Of a stretch of 64,000 nt of DNA, positions 11,643 through 22,171 are shown piece by piece. Position numbers and translations under genes: made by a program. Origin of the DNA: an uncultured Ectothiorhodospiraceae bacterium (GTDB lineage: Bacteria; Pseudomonadota; Gammaproteobacteria; UBA6429; Thiohalophilaceae). Location of the stretch: assembly GCA_947260005.1 (NCBI GenBank), contig CAMYOL010000029.1:1077-65076 (forward strand). The letters run 5' to 3'. The notes under the pieces are model-generated. The model was not told the DNA's origin and did no database searches. It saw only the letters and a list, made by a program, of their open reading frames with translations. The first letter of the stretch is position 1; each line of letters opens with the position of its first letter.

Positions 11643-12455
11643 ATGAAATCCAAATTAACCTTTTTAACATTAACCACTCTTACAATGCTCATGGCCTTTC
11701 CGGTTGTTGCGGCCGAAACCGTTGCTATAGTGAATGGTAAAAAGCTTACTCAAAAAGACTTAGATAATCATATTGCTATGATTCAGACCATGACCCGCAA
11801 AAAGGTCGAAAATAAAAAAAATGCCTTACAAAACCTGATCGATCGCGAAATTATGTATCAGGAAGTCCAAAAGCAAAAAATTGACCAGGATCCGGAAATG
11901 CAATTCATCGTCCAGTTTCAGGCTCGTGAAATGTACAATAATGCTTTGCTTAAAAAAACAATTGGCAATAATCCAATAACCGATGAAGAAATAAAAAAGC
12001 TCTATGATGAGAAAATAAAGAACCTTGAAATCAAGGAATATAAAGTCCGTCACATACTCTTCAAAAAAGAAACTGCTGATGGAGAAAGTCAGGCCAAGGC
12101 GGTTATTGCCCAGCTGGATACTGGCAAAGATTTTATTGAGTTAGCCAAAGAAAAATCACAAGGCCCATCAGCTGCAAAGGGTGGAGACATCGGCTGGATG
12201 AATCTTGCAACTATGCGTGATATGCCTGGATTTGCTCAGGCCTTATCAGAAATGAAAAAAGGCAGTTACAGTAAAACACCAATAAAATCTAATTTTGGCT
12301 GGCATGTATTAAAGCTCGATGATGTTCGTAATAAAGAGCCTGCTAGCTTCGAACAATCCAAAAAACAATTAGGTACTATCATCCAGCAAGAACGGATTCA
12401 AGCCTATGTGAGTTCGCTCAGAAGCAAAGCAAAGGTTGAAATTAAACTAAAATAA
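11643..12455 (+). CDS. Periplasmic parvulin-type peptidyl-prolyl cis-trans isomerase
   Basis: The protein has 270 residues from ATG 11643, with GGAAGGA just upstream; a TTG at 11628 is unlikely because it would spoil the signal peptide. Residues 1-24 form a Sec signal ending VVAAET. A SurA-like helical region (about 25-125) precedes one PpiC/parvulin domain (about 130-235) with VRHILF, a GGDIGWM strand and SNFGWHVLKLDD. Family members assist folding of outer-membrane and secreted proteins. It closes the yci operon and is followed by a terminator. Confidence 0.9.
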   Translation: MKSKLTFLTLTTLTMLMAFPVVAAETVAIVNGKKLTQKDLDNHIAMIQTMTRKKVENKKNALQNLIDREIMYQEVQKQKIDQDPEMQFIVQFQAREMYNNALLKKTIGNNPITDEEIKKLYDEKIKNLEIKEYKVRHILFKKETADGESQAKAVIAQLDTGKDFIELAKEKSQGPSAAKGGDIGWMNLATMRDMPGFAQALSEMKKGSYSKTPIKSNFGWHVLKLDDVRNKEPASFEQSKKQLGTIIQQERIQAYVSSLRSKAKVEIKLK

Positions 12456-12516
12456 ACTTTGTAAAATCGAGTACAACGATTTCTCAGAGAGGCCACCCCC
12501 CTTATTAAGCTCACCT

Positions 12517-12556
12517 AACCGGAACTAGGTCACACTTTTTCCGGTTTTTATTTTTT
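12517..12556 (+). terminator. Rho-independent terminator after the parvulin gene
   Basis: AACCGGAA (12517-12524) pairs with TTCCGGTT (12539-12546) and is followed by a T-rich tract. It lies about 60 bp after the parvulin stop codon and insulates the pilus operon from the yci operon. Confidence 0.65.
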
Positions 12557-12592
12557 CCGAGTTAATAAACCAAATAATTTTACTCAATAAAT

Positions 12593-12610
12593 TCGTGATC
12601 GATATCACGA
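12593..12610. promoter_or_regulatory. CRP/Vfr-like palindrome upstream of the pilus operon
   Basis: The sequence TCGTGAT-CGAT-ATCACGA is a perfect inverted repeat of 7 bp arms. It reads CGTGA-N6-TCACG, one symmetrical change from the CRP consensus TGTGA-N6-TCACA. It is about 140 bp upstream of the fimT-like start. In Pseudomonas the CRP homologue Vfr affects type IV pilus genes, so the position is sensible. No crp gene is in this window. Confidence 0.45.
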
Positions 12611-12750
12611 GCATTTTAAACCATTCTTGATAAACGGTTCCATTTTCATAGTAAGCGTGCTTTTTCATAAGGTTACGCACATTTTACCCGAACTTAGAAA
12701 ATACAGTTTTTAATTCTAAGGCCGTTATTTCTTCATATGCAAAACAGGTA

Positions 12751-13359
12751 ATGCTTATGATGACAATAACGATTTCACCACACTCTGAAAAGGGTTTTAC
12801 GCTTCAAGAGCTCATGTTAAGCCTCGCGATATTTTTTATCCTGGGTGCCTTAGGCGTTCCAAGTTATGTTGGTTATGTTCGAAACGGTGAATTAAGTAAT
12901 TCAGCTACTTCATTGTTTGCCGATCTCCATCTTGCCCGTAGTGAAGCGATAAAACGTAAAACTACCGTCAGCTTATGCCGCAGTGCTGACTCTATGGCGG
13001 ACAACCCTACTTGTGGTGGAAGCGCAAACAGTTGGTCAGATGGTTGGATCGTTTATGTTGAAGTTGATGGTGTGCAGGGAAACTTTGATCAGGCTGGAGG
13101 CGATGTCTTATTAACTGTCAGCAGTCCACCAGGAAATAACGTAGAAATTGTTTCAAATAGTAACGCTGACGCATTTATTAACTACAACCCGGATGGATCA
13201 TTGAGCTTAATAAATTCTCCTAGTGTGTACTCAGTCTGTGTAGATCGAGATAAAGACGGAGACTTTGAAGAATTAACCGGAAGAGAAATTCGGGTGAATC
13301 CAATGGGTCGACCTGAAATCATGGCCGGTTCGATTATAAGTTGTGAAAATCCGGCTTAG
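12751..13359 (+). CDS. fimT: Type IV pilus minor pilin, GspH/FimT family
   Basis: The protein has 202 residues. A class III prepilin signal is visible: a short leader ending KG, then FTLQELMLSLAIFFILGALG, with Glu at position 5 of the mature chain. The C-terminal part has paired Cys residues (about 72, 86, 168 and 199) and a GspH-like fold signature (DLHLARSEAIKR). It is the first gene of the fimT-pilV-pilW-pilX-pilY1-pilE operon. In Pseudomonas the orthologues fimU/pilVWXY1E prime pilus assembly. Exact fimT versus fimU assignment is uncertain. Confidence 0.85.
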   Translation: MLMMTITISPHSEKGFTLQELMLSLAIFFILGALGVPSYVGYVRNGELSNSATSLFADLHLARSEAIKRKTTVSLCRSADSMADNPTCGGSANSWSDGWIVYVEVDGVQGNFDQAGGDVLLTVSSPPGNNVEIVSNSNADAFINYNPDGSLSLINSPSVYSVCVDRDKDGDFEELTGREIRVNPMGRPEIMAGSIISCENPA

Positions 13360-13369
13360 ATATCGCCTT

Positions 13370-13942
13370 ATGATGAATCATTCACAAACAGGCACTTCAT
13401 TAATCGAAATTTTGGTTTCATTGTTTGTCGTGAGCATTGGTTTGCTAGGTATCGCACGATTGGAGATCTACTCGACTCAGTCAAATAGCGAGGCCATTCA
13501 ACGTACCAGTGCATCACTAATTGCTCATGACTTTATGGAAAAAGTTCGCGCCAACCCGACTGTACTCGCTTCTTATGCCGGTACAAATGTTGGTGATGGT
13601 AGTTTTGCCCTACCTGCAAATGATTGCACTTTAAATAATTGCAACACAACTGACATTGCAGCCTGGGATATATATCAGCTCGATCAACAGTTGATTGGAG
13701 CTGACGCTCAATCAGCCGGTAATAACACTGGTGGACTCGCATTTCCTCGTGCCTGCATTACCGGGCCCGCCGCGGGTGGCGCAGGTGAATATATCATTTC
13801 AATCGCATGGCGTGGCAGCCAACCGCAACCTAATCCTCAAATATCTAATTGTGGTGAAGGTCAGGGTTTATACGGAGCAACTGAAGAATATAGACGTATA
13901 TTAAGTATCACCTTTTTTGTTTCTGACGATGGTATAAATTGA
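13370..13942 (+). CDS. pilV: Type IV pilus minor pilin PilV
   Basis: A protein of 190 residues from ATG 13370 (ATG 13373 equally possible; a GTG at 13343 would overlap the previous gene). The prepilin motif reads QTG then TSLIEILVSLFVVSIGLLG, cleaved after Gly with Glu at +5. The mature part has several Cys in short loops (NDCTLNNCN, RACITG, ISNCGEG). Length and place between fimT and pilW match PilV. It is partly coupled to pilW, whose ATG overlaps the TGA stop. Confidence 0.88.
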   Translation: MMNHSQTGTSLIEILVSLFVVSIGLLGIARLEIYSTQSNSEAIQRTSASLIAHDFMEKVRANPTVLASYAGTNVGDGSFALPANDCTLNNCNTTDIAAWDIYQLDQQLIGADAQSAGNNTGGLAFPRACITGPAAGGAGEYIISIAWRGSQPQPNPQISNCGEGQGLYGATEEYRRILSITFFVSDDGIN

Positions 13943-14949
13943 TGACTACAAAAAAATCGATGGGTTTCAGTCTAATAGAAATGATGATAACACTATCACT
14001 CGGTCTTCTCATTCTTGGTATGGTCATTAACCTGTTTATCACCACAAAACAAAATCACACTCAAAATAGTCGTGTCTCTTCTGTTTTAGAAAACGGCCGG
14101 TTTGCACTACGTATGCTGAGCAATGACTTAAAAGCCGTTGGTTTTATGGGCGGGATGTGGGAAATGACTTCACTTTCTATCGACCCGAGTATTTCACTCG
14201 CCGTTGATTGCGGGCAAGCCGCCGAAGCCAACTGGGCATATGACGTACAAACCTATTCTCATATGCAGTTTCGTTATAACGTCAGCTCAGTTACCGCAAA
14301 TTCTCAATTCCAATGTATTAACGCCGGTGATTTTCAAAATAGTACAGACGTCTTGGCCGTCAAGAGAACGTATACTGAAAAAGATACCGCTGCTTTGGCA
14401 AACAATGTTGTCTACTTACGTTCTGATTATAATACAGGATGTTTTTGGTATCATGATGCTGCAAACCCGAATCCAGCAGGTGTTAATTGTCCGGCCGCTA
14501 ATTTTGAAGACTGGCGGTATTTAGTCAATATTTATTATATCCGTTCTTACACCGATAATCCTGGTGATGGCAATCCTTCCTTATGTAAAAAATACTTAAC
14601 TGCTTCAAATGACCCTACTCCGGTACCAACAATGGCTGAAGTTTGCTTAGCTGAGGGAATAGAACATTTTCACGTTCAATACGGAATAGATACCGATTTG
14701 CCACGAGATGGAGTTGCAAATACATTTATATCTAATCCAACAGCTACTCAGGTAAGCACCCAGGCTGTTTCGGCAAAGATATTTGTGTTAGTTCGTGCTG
14801 ATCGTGAAGATACAACTTTCACCAATAACAAAACATATACGATGGGTGATCGACAGATCGTCGTCAACGATATGTATTACCGTCGTATGTATAGCACTAC
14901 CGTTGTGCTTCGTAATCCACGAAACACCGCTCTGTTTAACGCATTTTAG
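13942..14949 (+). CDS. pilW: Type IV pilus assembly protein PilW
   Basis: A protein of 335 residues starting at ATG 13942, which overlaps the pilV stop as TGATG; a TTG three bases earlier is not needed. The leader MTTKKSMG precedes FSLIEMMITLSLGLLILGM, the class III prepilin motif with Glu5. It has the PilW signature of a long helix (NSRVSSVLENGRFALRMLSNDLKAVGF has the family look) and a large beta-rich C-terminal region. It acts as a minor pilin in the priming complex with PilV, PilX and PilY1. Confidence 0.9.
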   Translation: MTTKKSMGFSLIEMMITLSLGLLILGMVINLFITTKQNHTQNSRVSSVLENGRFALRMLSNDLKAVGFMGGMWEMTSLSIDPSISLAVDCGQAAEANWAYDVQTYSHMQFRYNVSSVTANSQFQCINAGDFQNSTDVLAVKRTYTEKDTAALANNVVYLRSDYNTGCFWYHDAANPNPAGVNCPAANFEDWRYLVNIYYIRSYTDNPGDGNPSLCKKYLTASNDPTPVPTMAEVCLAEGIEHFHVQYGIDTDLPRDGVANTFISNPTATQVSTQAVSAKIFVLVRADREDTTFTNNKTYTMGDRQIVVNDMYYRRMYSTTVVLRNPRNTALFNAF

Positions 14950-14957
14950 GCCAAAGC

Positions 14958-15449
14958 ATGACAAATATAATACTAAGTAAAAATAATGGAACAGCATTAA
15001 TCACCGCCCTGGTACTTTTAGTCGCCTTAACCATGGTAGCTTTATCGGGTGTACGTTCTACGAGTGTGCAACTTTTAATTTCTGGCAACGATGAAACAAC
15101 GGTAGAAGCTTATGAATTTGCACAATCAGTCGTTGATGCCGTTATCGAAAATTCAACCAACTTTGCTATGGGTACTAACGTTGGATTCACTTCCTGTTTA
15201 AATAACGCCGCAGATTGCAACAATGATTCTATTGATTTTACCGAAGCGATGTTTGCAGGTATCAATATACAAGCTAAAGTAAAATTTTTAAAATCGGGAC
15301 CCGCACCCAGGAAACAAAACGCCAGCAGTCTTGCGCAAACTAACGGTGCGTATTTTGATATTACCGGCCAATACGATGAGACGGCCAATAATCGAGGAAA
15401 AGCAGATATCGTACAAGGATTTGTTCTTACCATACCTAACGGGCAATAA
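14958..15449 (+). CDS. pilX: Type IV pilus assembly protein PilX
   Basis: The 163-residue protein has an N-terminal hydrophobic helix, NGTALITALVLLVALTMVAL, typical of PilX, which lacks the usual Glu5 of major pilins and has the PilX pattern of Gly-x-Ala-Leu. One Cys pair (SCLNNAADC) is seen. The gene begins 8 bp after pilW and its stop lies just upstream of the pilY1 ribosome site. In Pseudomonas PilX works with PilY1 at the pilus tip. Confidence 0.88.
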   Translation: MTNIILSKNNGTALITALVLLVALTMVALSGVRSTSVQLLISGNDETTVEAYEFAQSVVDAVIENSTNFAMGTNVGFTSCLNNAADCNNDSIDFTEAMFAGINIQAKVKFLKSGPAPRKQNASSLAQTNGAYFDITGQYDETANNRGKADIVQGFVLTIPNGQ

Positions 15450-15460
15450 AGGGCAATCCT

Positions 15461-18400
15461 ATTAAGTTATTAAAAAATATTAAATCAATTACATTACTGG
15501 TTTCTTTACTTGGGTTTAGTGTAACGACTCTGCAAGCCGATGATACTGATATCTATTTAACAGGCGGAGGTGCCGCGGCAGATGAGCCATTAGTCATGTT
15601 CGTTCTTGACTGGCGCCCAAATCTGACAAGTACGATGTGTAATGCTGGAAGTGTTGCCACCGTGGCTGCGGATTGCGGTTACGATGCAACTTTTGTTAGT
15701 ACCTATTTATTGCCAGCTGATACAACGATTACATATTTCGAGTTATTACGTGGTGTCTTACGTCAGGCCATGGCACCTTTGGATGGCGTTAAAATAGGTT
15801 TTATGATCAATCACGATGATAACTGTACTGGTGGGACAACATCGGGTCCCACTAAAACAGGTTGCAGTAACGGCGCTTATGTCATGCAAGGTTTTAAATC
15901 CATTAATGCCAGTGATTCAAATGGTAATAAAGCTGCATTTCATACTATGTTAGACGGTATACCAGACCCGCAAGGATCTGCCAGTCATAAATTCCAGGGT
16001 AAAGAACTCTATTTCGAATTGTTTCGCTATTTAACCGGACAGGGTATATACAACGGCCACCTTGGCTGGAAAGATTACGATAATAATACCTCGAGCGATA
16101 ATTTAGACGGCAGTGGTGGTCCGGAAACGCCTGATTATTCAGCATTAGCCTGGGACACTTCAATTGAAAGTGGAGGTACACGTTATATCACGCCCCTTTC
16201 ATCCAGCATGACCTGCTCAAAAATATTTGTTATCAATATAATGTTTCAGGTGTCACAACAAGAAGACGATTCGGATGATGCAATCACTGAGACTAAAGCC
16301 AATGAAGGCATGAACAGTATTGTATTAAGTGGGTCCAGTAATAATTTTGATACCGTCGTTAACTGGATGTTTAATAATGATCTGGCTGATGGATCGATTA
16401 CGATGACTAAAGACGCAGCAGGGGCAACGGAAAATATTGATATTCCCGGTCTGCAAAATGTTATTTCTTACTTTTTAGTCAATTCGCCTAATAACACCAC
16501 CAATGGTTACGCCAGTGCCGGCGGTACCGGTAATGCGATTGAATTAGGATCAGACCCCGCTGAGATGGCCGATACGATTACCAATATCTTTAATCAAATT
16601 TTAAGCGTGAGCACGACTTTTGTCTCCGCTTCGGTACCAGTAAATGTATTTAATCGATCTGAATTTTTAGATGATGTTTATATCGCTTTGTTTGAAGCAG
16701 AAGAAAATGGTTTTCCAAAATGGATCGGTAATTTAAAAAAATTAAAACTACAATACGATGGTACCGGAACGTTATTTATTGGTGACGCTAATTCTAATCC
16801 CGCGTTTGCCGCTGATGGCCGCATCAATTTTAATGCACTAACCTATTGGACCGATCCTGGCGGCGCTGATGTTGTTGCCTTTGATAGCAGTGAAGGTGAA
16901 ATTACCGGCTTTGATGGACGAAGCGTAAACCGAGGTGGTGCCGGACAACAAGTTACCGGTATCTTGTCGGGAATCGTAGGTACAAGTAACTCAGATACAA
17001 ATGCTCGCCAGGTATTTACTGAACCAGCCAGTTATACAAATGGTCTGCCTTCAAACGCTTTATTAGAACTGGATGCAACTGTAACCAATGCCTCAGATTT
17101 ATGGGACGATATGAATGCAGCAGGTGTAAATTCATCTGCTGCCATCGTTAATAACACGAACTGGTCCGTTGCGGCTGATTACTCTAGCGCATCTTCAACT
17201 GAAAAAACCACTGCCTTGAATATGTTGAAATGGGCACGAGGTATTGACGTGATGGACGAAGATCTTGATGCCAGCACTACCGATAACCGCCCCTGGCTCA
17301 TGTCCGATCCAATTCATTCTCGACCATTAACCATTAACTATGGTGATACCGGGGCTGGATTCGATGTGAATAATCAAGATGTTAGAATTATTATTACCGG
17401 TAATGATGGTTTTGTGCACATGGTTCAAAATACTAACGCAGCCGCTGCCGAAAGTGGGGTCGAGAATTGGACTTTTATTCCACGTTATGGTTTGCGTCTA
17501 TTAAATCGTTTAATGACTAACACCGCCGGTTCACCTGTTCATCCGTATGGAGTTGATGGAGCACCTGTGGCGTATACCTATGATTCCAACAATGATGGCA
17601 ATCTTATTGCCGCTGATGGTGACAAGGTCTATTTATATTTTGGAATGCGTCGCGGCGGTCGTAACTACTATGCCATGGACATAAGTGATCCTGATACACC
17701 CAAAATGTTATGGTCAATTTCGAACAATGATGCTGATTTTAGTGAAATGGGTTTAACCTTCTCAAAACCGCAACTCATCAAGTTAAACTATGATTCCAAC
17801 ATACTAAAACCAGCGCTAATATTTGGTGGTGGTTACGATACTAATAAGGACACACGTTCTAGCAGTACAGGGACAGATGACAGTATGGGTAATGCTATTT
17901 ATATTATTGATGCTGAAACCGGCGCATTGATCTGGAAAGCCAATCAAGGGGTTTTATCTGCAGGTACGACAAGTTTCCAGCATCCCGATCTATTTGACAG
18001 TATTCCATCTGATATTACTGCCGTTGATACTGATGGTGATAATGCAATTGATCGTTTTTATGTCGGCGATACCGGCGGTACGATTTGGCGAGGTGACATA
18101 AATACTAATGCACGAAATTCCTGGAAGTTACAGAAATTTGCCGATGTCGGACGTCATTATAATACGAATAAACGTAATGATCGACGTTTCTTCCATGCGA
18201 TTGATATTGTCCAAACGCGAGATCAAACAGGTCCTTATGATGCCATTATAATTGGTTCAGGCGATCGCCCAAATCCACTGGATAGCAGCGTTGGTGCAAA
18301 CACACCTGAAAACTGGTTCTATATGTTTAAAGATAGAAAAGTTTTATCCGGCGCGAACTTATCCGGTATTTATAATCAGTCATCGGTGGCAGACCTATCG

Positions 18401-18871
18401 AATAACTGTATCCAGGAATTTGGGCTTACCTGTACTTCAACGCAATTAACCAAGTTAGAGTCTTACGGCTGGAAAATAGAACTTGAGCAATCAATCGGCG
18501 AGAAGGCTTTGTCACGTCCTATTACGCTTAATGGCGTTATCTACTTTACTACCTACCTACCACCAGGTTCTTCGCCAAGTACAACCTGCGGGCCTGATGA
18601 AGGAAGTGGTTTGACTTATGCATTGAACCTGCAAAACGCCACCGCAGCTATTAATAACAATTTAGCTAATTCAATCACTTCGCCAACTGGGGATGTCCTC
18701 ACCCTGCAATCAGGTGATCGATTTAAAGGGGCAGGTGCAGGTATTCCAGCCGACGTAATTGCTATACGTAAAGGTGGTAAAACTTATGCCTTACCGCCAG
18801 GCGAAAACTATCCACCTGTCGTCGATCAGGATGCGGGTTCAAAAACCTATTGGTATGTAGAAGGAGAATAA
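15461..18871 (+). CDS. pilY1: Type IV pilus tip adhesin PilY1, probable ATT start
   Basis: The first ATG (15596) would remove any signal peptide. The same frame is open upstream and from ATT 15461 encodes a good Sec signal: a Lys-rich start, a hydrophobic run (ITLLVSLLGFSV) and a cleavage site near LQA-DD. AAAGGG lies seven bases before the ATT. From there the protein has 1136 residues. No ATG, GTG or TTG exists between the upstream stop at 15437 and 15596. The C-terminal half is the PilY1 beta-propeller with an EF-hand-like calcium loop DTDGDNAID (D856-D864). An N-terminal VWA-like region begins LVMFVLDWRPNLTST, where the usual DxSxS metal motif is missing. PilY1 controls pilus extension and adhesion. 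Confidence 0.87.
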   Translation: MKLLKNIKSITLLVSLLGFSVTTLQADDTDIYLTGGGAAADEPLVMFVLDWRPNLTSTMCNAGSVATVAADCGYDATFVSTYLLPADTTITYFELLRGVLRQAMAPLDGVKIGFMINHDDNCTGGTTSGPTKTGCSNGAYVMQGFKSINASDSNGNKAAFHTMLDGIPDPQGSASHKFQGKELYFELFRYLTGQGIYNGHLGWKDYDNNTSSDNLDGSGGPETPDYSALAWDTSIESGGTRYITPLSSSMTCSKIFVINIMFQVSQQEDDSDDAITETKANEGMNSIVLSGSSNNFDTVVNWMFNNDLADGSITMTKDAAGATENIDIPGLQNVISYFLVNSPNNTTNGYASAGGTGNAIELGSDPAEMADTITNIFNQILSVSTTFVSASVPVNVFNRSEFLDDVYIALFEAEENGFPKWIGNLKKLKLQYDGTGTLFIGDANSNPAFAADGRINFNALTYWTDPGGADVVAFDSSEGEITGFDGRSVNRGGAGQQVTGILSGIVGTSNSDTNARQVFTEPASYTNGLPSNALLELDATVTNASDLWDDMNAAGVNSSAAIVNNTNWSVAADYSSASSTEKTTALNMLKWARGIDVMDEDLDASTTDNRPWLMSDPIHSRPLTINYGDTGAGFDVNNQDVRIIITGNDGFVHMVQNTNAAAAESGVENWTFIPRYGLRLLNRLMTNTAGSPVHPYGVDGAPVAYTYDSNNDGNLIAADGDKVYLYFGMRRGGRNYYAMDISDPDTPKMLWSISNNDADFSEMGLTFSKPQLIKLNYDSNILKPALIFGGGYDTNKDTRSSSTGTDDSMGNAIYIIDAETGALIWKANQGVLSAGTTSFQHPDLFDSIPSDITAVDTDGDNAIDRFYVGDTGGTIWRGDINTNARNSWKLQKFADVGRHYNTNKRNDRRFFHAIDIVQTRDQTGPYDAIIIGSGDRPNPLDSSVGANTPENWFYMFKDRKVLSGANLSGIYNQSSVADLSNNCIQEFGLTCTSTQLTKLESYGWKIELEQSIGEKALSRPITLNGVIYFTTYLPPGSSPSTTCGPDEGSGLTYALNLQNATAAINNNLANSITSPTGDVLTLQSGDRFKGAGAGIPADVIAIRKGGKTYALPPGENYPPVVDQDAGSKTYWYVEGE

Positions 18872-18873
18872 AA

Positions 18874-19347
18874 GTGAAATATGGGCTTAAATCCAGATCG
18901 TCCGCACAACGTGGACTTACCATGATTGAATTAATGGTAACGATTTCTATTATTGCTATCCTCGCTGGTATTGCTATTCCAACCTATGAACGTTATACCC
19001 GTGGTTCAAACCGAACTGCGGCGAAAACCACATTAGAGAGAGTCAGAGGTCTCGCTGAAAGTTATTTTCTTAACAACAAGTCTTACACTAATGATTTAAC
19101 TAATCTTGGTTTTAACGCTAACCCACTTGAGATCGATAAGTCCGGAGAAGAAGTGGCTGCTGGTTCAAGTGATGCAAAATATCAGATTATTATTAATGTA
19201 CCTGGAGTCTTCTGTCCTAATTGTACCTATGAGGTTGGAGCTATCCCAATAAATACACAACTTGATGATACAGACTGTATGACCCTGTTTATAAACTCGA
19301 CAAACCAGAAAGGGGCATCGGGCCCTAAAGGTCTTAAGTGTTGGTAA
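18874..19347 (+). CDS. pilE: Type IV pilin-like protein PilE
   Basis: A protein of 157 residues using GTG 18874 behind AAGGAG (18861-18866). The longer frame from 18850 overlaps pilY1 and is not needed. The prepilin motif is QRG then LTMIELMVTISIIAILAGIA with Glu5. The C-terminal part has a CPNC and a terminal disulfide-type pair (DDTDC ... LKCW). This matches PilE, the last minor pilin in this operon. Being last after pilY1 fits Pseudomonas order. It converges on ligA with only 6 bp between stops. Confidence 0.88.
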   Translation: MKYGLKSRSSAQRGLTMIELMVTISIIAILAGIAIPTYERYTRGSNRTAAKTTLERVRGLAESYFLNNKSYTNDLTNLGFNANPLEIDKSGEEVAAGSSDAKYQIIINVPGVFCPNCTYEVGAIPINTQLDDTDCMTLFINSTNQKGASGPKGLKCW

Positions 19348-19353
19348 TTTTAA

Positions 19354-22171
<2,818 letters not shown>

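Follow-up and report, generated by a model that had tools for sequence, protein, structure and literature searches.

Initiation at AUU has been experimentally proven for infC and pcnB of E. coli, in which the codon follows a Shine-Dalgarno (SD) sequence without a canonical start in frame and is tied to autoregulation or limited expression (PMC5472188, cited in PMC13009471). In S. aureus, AUU and AUA starts were measured at ~10% of AUG (PMC13009471). The AUA of citZ, an ordinary gene, is limited to the NCTC 8325 lineage, also reaches ~10% of AUG, and was confirmed in several related strains and with reporters (PMC13009471). The AUU of cvfC1 and the AUA of ccpN in S. aureus (PMC13009471), as well as the GTC of sigR in Streptomyces (PMC5472188), are likewise non-canonical and lower expression; these codons are conserved, and those of S. 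aureus are accompanied by an extended SD. The pilY1 gene analyzed here shares with infC and pcnB an apparent AUU after an SD and the lack of an in-frame canonical start, whereas its ATT is known from one assembly and its relatives start canonically. It shares with citZ a near-cognate start in one lineage, although the codon is AUU and not AUA; neither the codon conservation nor the extended SD of the remaining cases holds for pilY1.

The PilY1/PilC tip proteins of type IVa pili (PMC7541494, PMC13190605) have a signal peptide, a propeller, a calcium loop and a minor-pilin operon in common with the window protein, which differs from them in its ATT start and in carrying DWRPN in place of the MIDAS motif. 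Three minor-pilin/PilY1 clusters occur in Myxococcus xanthus (PMC7541494), and the window genome likewise has more than one. In Neisseria, pilC, also a PilY1 homolog with translational control near the start, undergoes phase variation through slippage at a poly-G tract in the region encoding the signal peptide (PMC13190605). Window pilY1, in contrast, has no poly-G tract, and phase variation at its A6 run was rejected given that no other-frame canonical start lies upstream of the run for slippage to use.

Reading frame and candidate start codons of pilY1

The window is the whole stretch of 64,000 nucleotides that was analyzed, and all coordinates refer to it unless a contig is named. The features around the start of pilY1 are as follows.

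14958..15449, + strand: pilX, the upstream gene, with its stop (TAA 15447-15449) 11 nt before the ATT (PF14341)
15448..15453, + strand: AAAGGG, Shine-Dalgarno sequence, 7 nt before the ATT and overlapping the pilX stop (anti-SD duplex -4.4 kcal/mol)
15461..15463, + strand: ATT, predicted pilY1 start codon (codon-for-codon alignment with the ATG of the closest orthologue; equal signal peptide and gap)
15461..15538, + strand: predicted signal peptide, 26 codons, cleavage LQA-DD (Kyte-Doolittle peak 2.18; three Lys among the first eight residues)
15461..18871, + strand: pilY1, 1136 codons plus stop (PF05567 over the cut-off in the genome search; profile match to 3HX6)
15596..15598, + strand: first in-frame ATG, almost certainly an internal codon and not a start (within the conserved E-P-[LM]-V-M-F-x-L-D; weak SD; stable fold)

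In the window sequence, the pilY1 frame has a TAA stop at 15437-15439 and is then open through 18868, with its stop codon at 18869-18871. An earlier note on this DNA had placed the stop at 15437, the ATT at 15461, the first in-frame ATG at 15596 and AAAGGG seven bases before the ATT, and all of these coordinates were right; its statement that no ATG, GTG or TTG lies between the stop and ATG 15596 agreed with our re-reading of the frame. At the codon frequencies of pilY1 itself, the chance that 45 successive codons include no canonical start is ~17%, so the missing start alone proves nothing and its weight comes only from homology. When all frames were scanned from 15440 to 15509, no canonical start was found. 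A one-base indel error therefore does not account for the absence and was rejected in favor of a substitution; the simplest single change restoring a canonical start is at the third base of codon 15461.

Other near-cognate codons in this stretch were also considered. ATA 15446, ATT 15479, ATT 15488 and CTG 15497 were rejected, having no well-placed SD and standing out of register with the orthologues, and so was AAG 15464, which seldom serves as an initiation codon and is likewise out of register. Fusion of pilX and pilY1 by frameshifting was discarded as well, given that visual inspection of the 15440-15449 overlap showed no slippery heptamer and that the closest orthologue has a separate ATG.

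Comparison with orthologues

The closest orthologue, with 57-59% identity, is located on contig C124 of genome G022 and was recovered again as L051 (JAHECZ010000017.1). An ATG stands at its exactly aligned codon, its signal peptide has 26 residues, and the gap behind its pilX stop is 11 nt, a length found only in the window gene and this orthologue among ~60 genes in which the gap was measurable. Start codons were counted in relatives from genome contigs with a readable N-terminus (L105, cut by a contig end, was left out): 69 of the 70 begin with ATG and one with GTG, and the window gene is alone in having no canonical start. Nearly all of these canonical starts lie 21-31 codons ahead of the mature end. 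This alignment settles the pilY1 N-terminus whether the T at 15463 is real or an error, and translation almost certainly starts at 15461. The start proposed in the earlier note is thus strongly supported in its position.

A start at ATG 15596, giving a protein without a signal peptide, is the call that a standard gene finder would make, since this is the first in-frame ATG. This reading is extremely improbable: it breaks a segment that every member of the subfamily conserves, loses the signal peptide, and has a weak SD in a structured context. The whole subfamily conserves the residues from DDTDIY onward, between the signal peptide and this ATG, which makes 15596 an internal codon; the orthologues exclude it as the functional start, and the earlier remark that a start there would remove the signal peptide holds.

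At the 157 columns that are invariant in the other 36 aligned members, the pilY1 protein departs once, by a conservative V to I, and it looks intact, although this comparison lacks the resolution to constrain an error rate near 1 in 100,000. No lesions were seen in pilY1, and an established pseudogene was rejected.

Initiation region and signal peptide

The AAAGGG sequence is suitable for ATT 15461 but ordinary, being neither extended nor strengthened to compensate. Its anti-SD duplex of -4.4 kcal/mol is near the orthologue median (39 of 69 are equal or stronger), and this strength is reached by 7% of random window positions. Of the near-cognate codons here, ATT 15461 is the one that has the best SD energy together with correct spacing and a full signal peptide. 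The mRNA near it is almost unstructured, and ATG 15596 lies within a stable fold. Thus, as in known near-cognate initiation, no usable ATG, GTG or TTG is available and a suitable SD is present; the conservation of the codon in relatives that marks the regulated cases was not found.

The N-terminus read from the ATT would be (f)M-KLLKNIKSITLLVSLLGFSVTTLQA / DDTDIY, with Met expected at position 1, and KLLKNIKSITLLVSLLGFSVTTLQA is predicted to be a good Sec signal peptide. Its length of 26 residues is the commonest among the orthologues. Charge, hydropathy and alignment agree with a type I signal peptide, Lys-rich, hydrophobic and ending near LQA-DD as noted earlier, only if translation begins at ATT 15461.

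PilY1 protein and the pil module

The following features concern the protein and the rest of the operon.

12751..14949, + strand: fimT/fimU-like gene, pilV and pilW, same operon (PF12019, TIGR02523, PF16074)
15608..15622, + strand: D-W-R-P-N in place of the MIDAS D-x-S-x-S (sequence comparison)
18026..18052, + strand: DTDGDNAID, putative PilY1-type calcium-binding loop (sequence pattern only)
18874..19347, + strand: pilE-like minor pilin, GTG start behind AAGGAG (N-methylation motif; sequence)

The product is a PilY1 protein by its propeller, calcium-loop pattern, signal peptide and neighborhood. The C-terminal beta-propeller was recovered in the genome search, with PF05567 over the cut-off at contig coordinates G000:C29:18451-19191, and the profile matched P. 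aeruginosa PilY1 (3HX6, E 1.1e-22). An ordinary Pfam scan does not pick up PF05567 in the protein, and the product is therefore called divergent. The N-terminal vWA MIDAS, common but not universal in PilY1, is lacking: where MIDAS-type members carry D-T-S-G-S, the window protein has D-W-R-P-N. A D-[WY]-R-[PS]-N subfamily was observed in dozens of gammaproteobacterial genomes, mostly metagenome-assembled (L051-L111).

The neighborhood is one of minor pilins, with fimU, pilV, pilW, pilX and pilE genes adjoining pilY1. The pilE-like gene itself has an apparent GTG start at 18874-18876, and its first ATG would drop the prepilin leader. Elsewhere in the window genome (G000), contig C51 carries a second minor-pilin/PilY1 cluster with an ATG-started open frame of 1414 residues (L146, 84000-92500), of which counterparts are found in G001, G008 and G022; PilQ is also encoded in G000. 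This second cluster indicates that the window cluster is an accessory tip module. The pil module (window 12455-19354) is absent in the three genomes of the same genus, G001-G003 (L045-L047), in which the peptidyl-prolyl isomerase gene is directly followed by ligA; at the same site G008 carries one such module and G022 a tandem pair (L048, L049). The accessory, second-module status of pilY1 is new and could not have been seen in the earlier note. New as well is the subfamily of PilY1 proteins that lack the MIDAS motif.

Is the ATT codon real?

The earlier note had allowed both a genuine ATT and an erroneous ATG-to-ATT change. The start position stands in either case, and the sequence cannot say whether the ATT is real or an assembly error; we consider it probably real in the organism. 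The comparison at this codon found ATG in relatives, which had been named as the mark of an error, but these relatives belong to other genera, at 57-59% identity or less. They thus argue for a lineage-specific change and are not proof of error. Searches for a further genome of the species were negative: genome contigs gave other species only, and viral contigs and the family and order searches gave nothing. The three same-genus genomes have no pilY1 at the site.

Prior rates help little in this decision, since consensus errors in good assemblies are of the same order as AUG-to-AUU switches. A study of start-codon evolution counted such a switch at 1 of 61,358 ancestral AUG starts (PMC5622118). 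Contig C29 is 253 kb long, and the flanking genes on it match the genus. Elsewhere in the assembly, contigs C15 and C67 (L131-L134) carry two divergent rplT-pheS regions, which suggests some contamination or duplication.

A consensus error or minor strain variant at 15463, with the organism's own gene starting at ATG like its relatives, is the serious rival, though rather unlikely: no other lesion is present across 3.4 kb of pilY1, and a consensus sequence, if of good depth here, would seldom carry substitution errors. Still, the closest orthologue's ATG differs from the ATT at a single base, the ATT comes from one assembly, the SD is ordinary, the two rplT-pheS regions hint at a mixture, and genuine switches from AUG to AUU and assembly errors are equally rare (PMC5622118). 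If the base is an error, it would illustrate how a single-base change makes a start look exotic.

Proposed effect of the ATT start

On balance, we favor, with some reserve, a start at 15461 and a real, lineage-specific change from ATG to ATT that lowers expression and is tolerated in an accessory module. Translation begins at codon 15461, on the evidence of homology, and this codon, the base being taken as real, would be an ATT replacing an ancestral ATG in the lineage. Ribosomes ending pilX 11 nt upstream, or binding AAAGGG, would bring the initiator tRNA to AUU, with which it pairs in part. Since the ribosome ending pilX would sit on AAAGGG, it could plausibly reinitiate at AUU through coupling to termination. 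Met inserted at AUU would yield exported PilY1, perhaps at a tenth of the AUG level, to judge from other AUU/AUA starts, and such a weak start may be tolerated when PilY1 belongs to an accessory second pilus-tip module, beside a core PilY1 that starts with ATG elsewhere in the genome. This reading is supported by the absence of a canonical start in frame, the aligned ATG of the closest orthologue with its equal signal-peptide length and gap, the same start place in 70 of 70 relatives, the apparent use of near-cognate starts in the family (infC), the intact protein, the suitable SD with open mRNA, the second PilY1 cluster, and the absence of the module from three sister species. The citZ AUA, confined to a strain lineage, is a fair precedent for a lineage-specific start change. 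Against it stand the canonical starts of all orthologues, the great rarity of AUG-to-AUU switches (PMC5622118), an SD that is not strengthened, and a single species assembly with some contamination signs.

The earlier suggestion that the ATT keeps PilY1 levels low is a fair inference from the measured AUU/AUA starts; a dedicated control circuit is unsupported, and a tolerated weak start is preferred to it, because the ATT is not conserved and the SD is near the median. A selected AUU start that keeps expression of the accessory tip protein low and sensitive to IF3, as in infC and pcnB, is accordingly improbable: the ATT is conserved in no relative, and the SD is not extended, unlike that of the conserved S. 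aureus cases (PMC13009471). The pilus tip does, however, need few copies of PilY1, translation could be coupled to pilX, and near-cognate starts are repressed by IF3 (PMC5472188). With a real, fixed AUU of this kind, start-codon strength would determine in what proportion a single pilus machine carries two alternative tips, a proposal to which we give the same low probability.

Early decay, in which a gene of a dispensable module has lost its start and is turning into a pseudogene, is quite improbable. The module is accessory and missing from three sister species, and a second PilY1 exists; however, the 1136-codon frame is intact with its conserved columns kept, and the adjoining pil genes are intact too. 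A very recent loss may still have occurred. Loss or weakening of an accessory module would be cheap, and this fits a real ATT and early decay alike. The likelihoods given to these explanations overlap slightly, as selected use and early decay also treat the base as real.

If the base is real, as in the favored tolerated weak start, pilY1 would be a further natural AUU-initiated gene beyond infC and pcnB, with a lineage-specific change beside an ATG orthologue. Standard gene finders would then mis-start it, hiding the signal peptide of a surface adhesin.

Relaxation of start selection by loss of IF3 was considered and rejected; infC is absent from the assembly, most likely through a contig gap, because the beginning of C67 falls within rpmI-rplT, a region immediately downstream of infC. 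In seven family relatives (L032-L038), infC has an ATC start preceded by GGAGG, none of the seven offers a canonical start within reach, and near-cognate initiation seems to be in use in the family.
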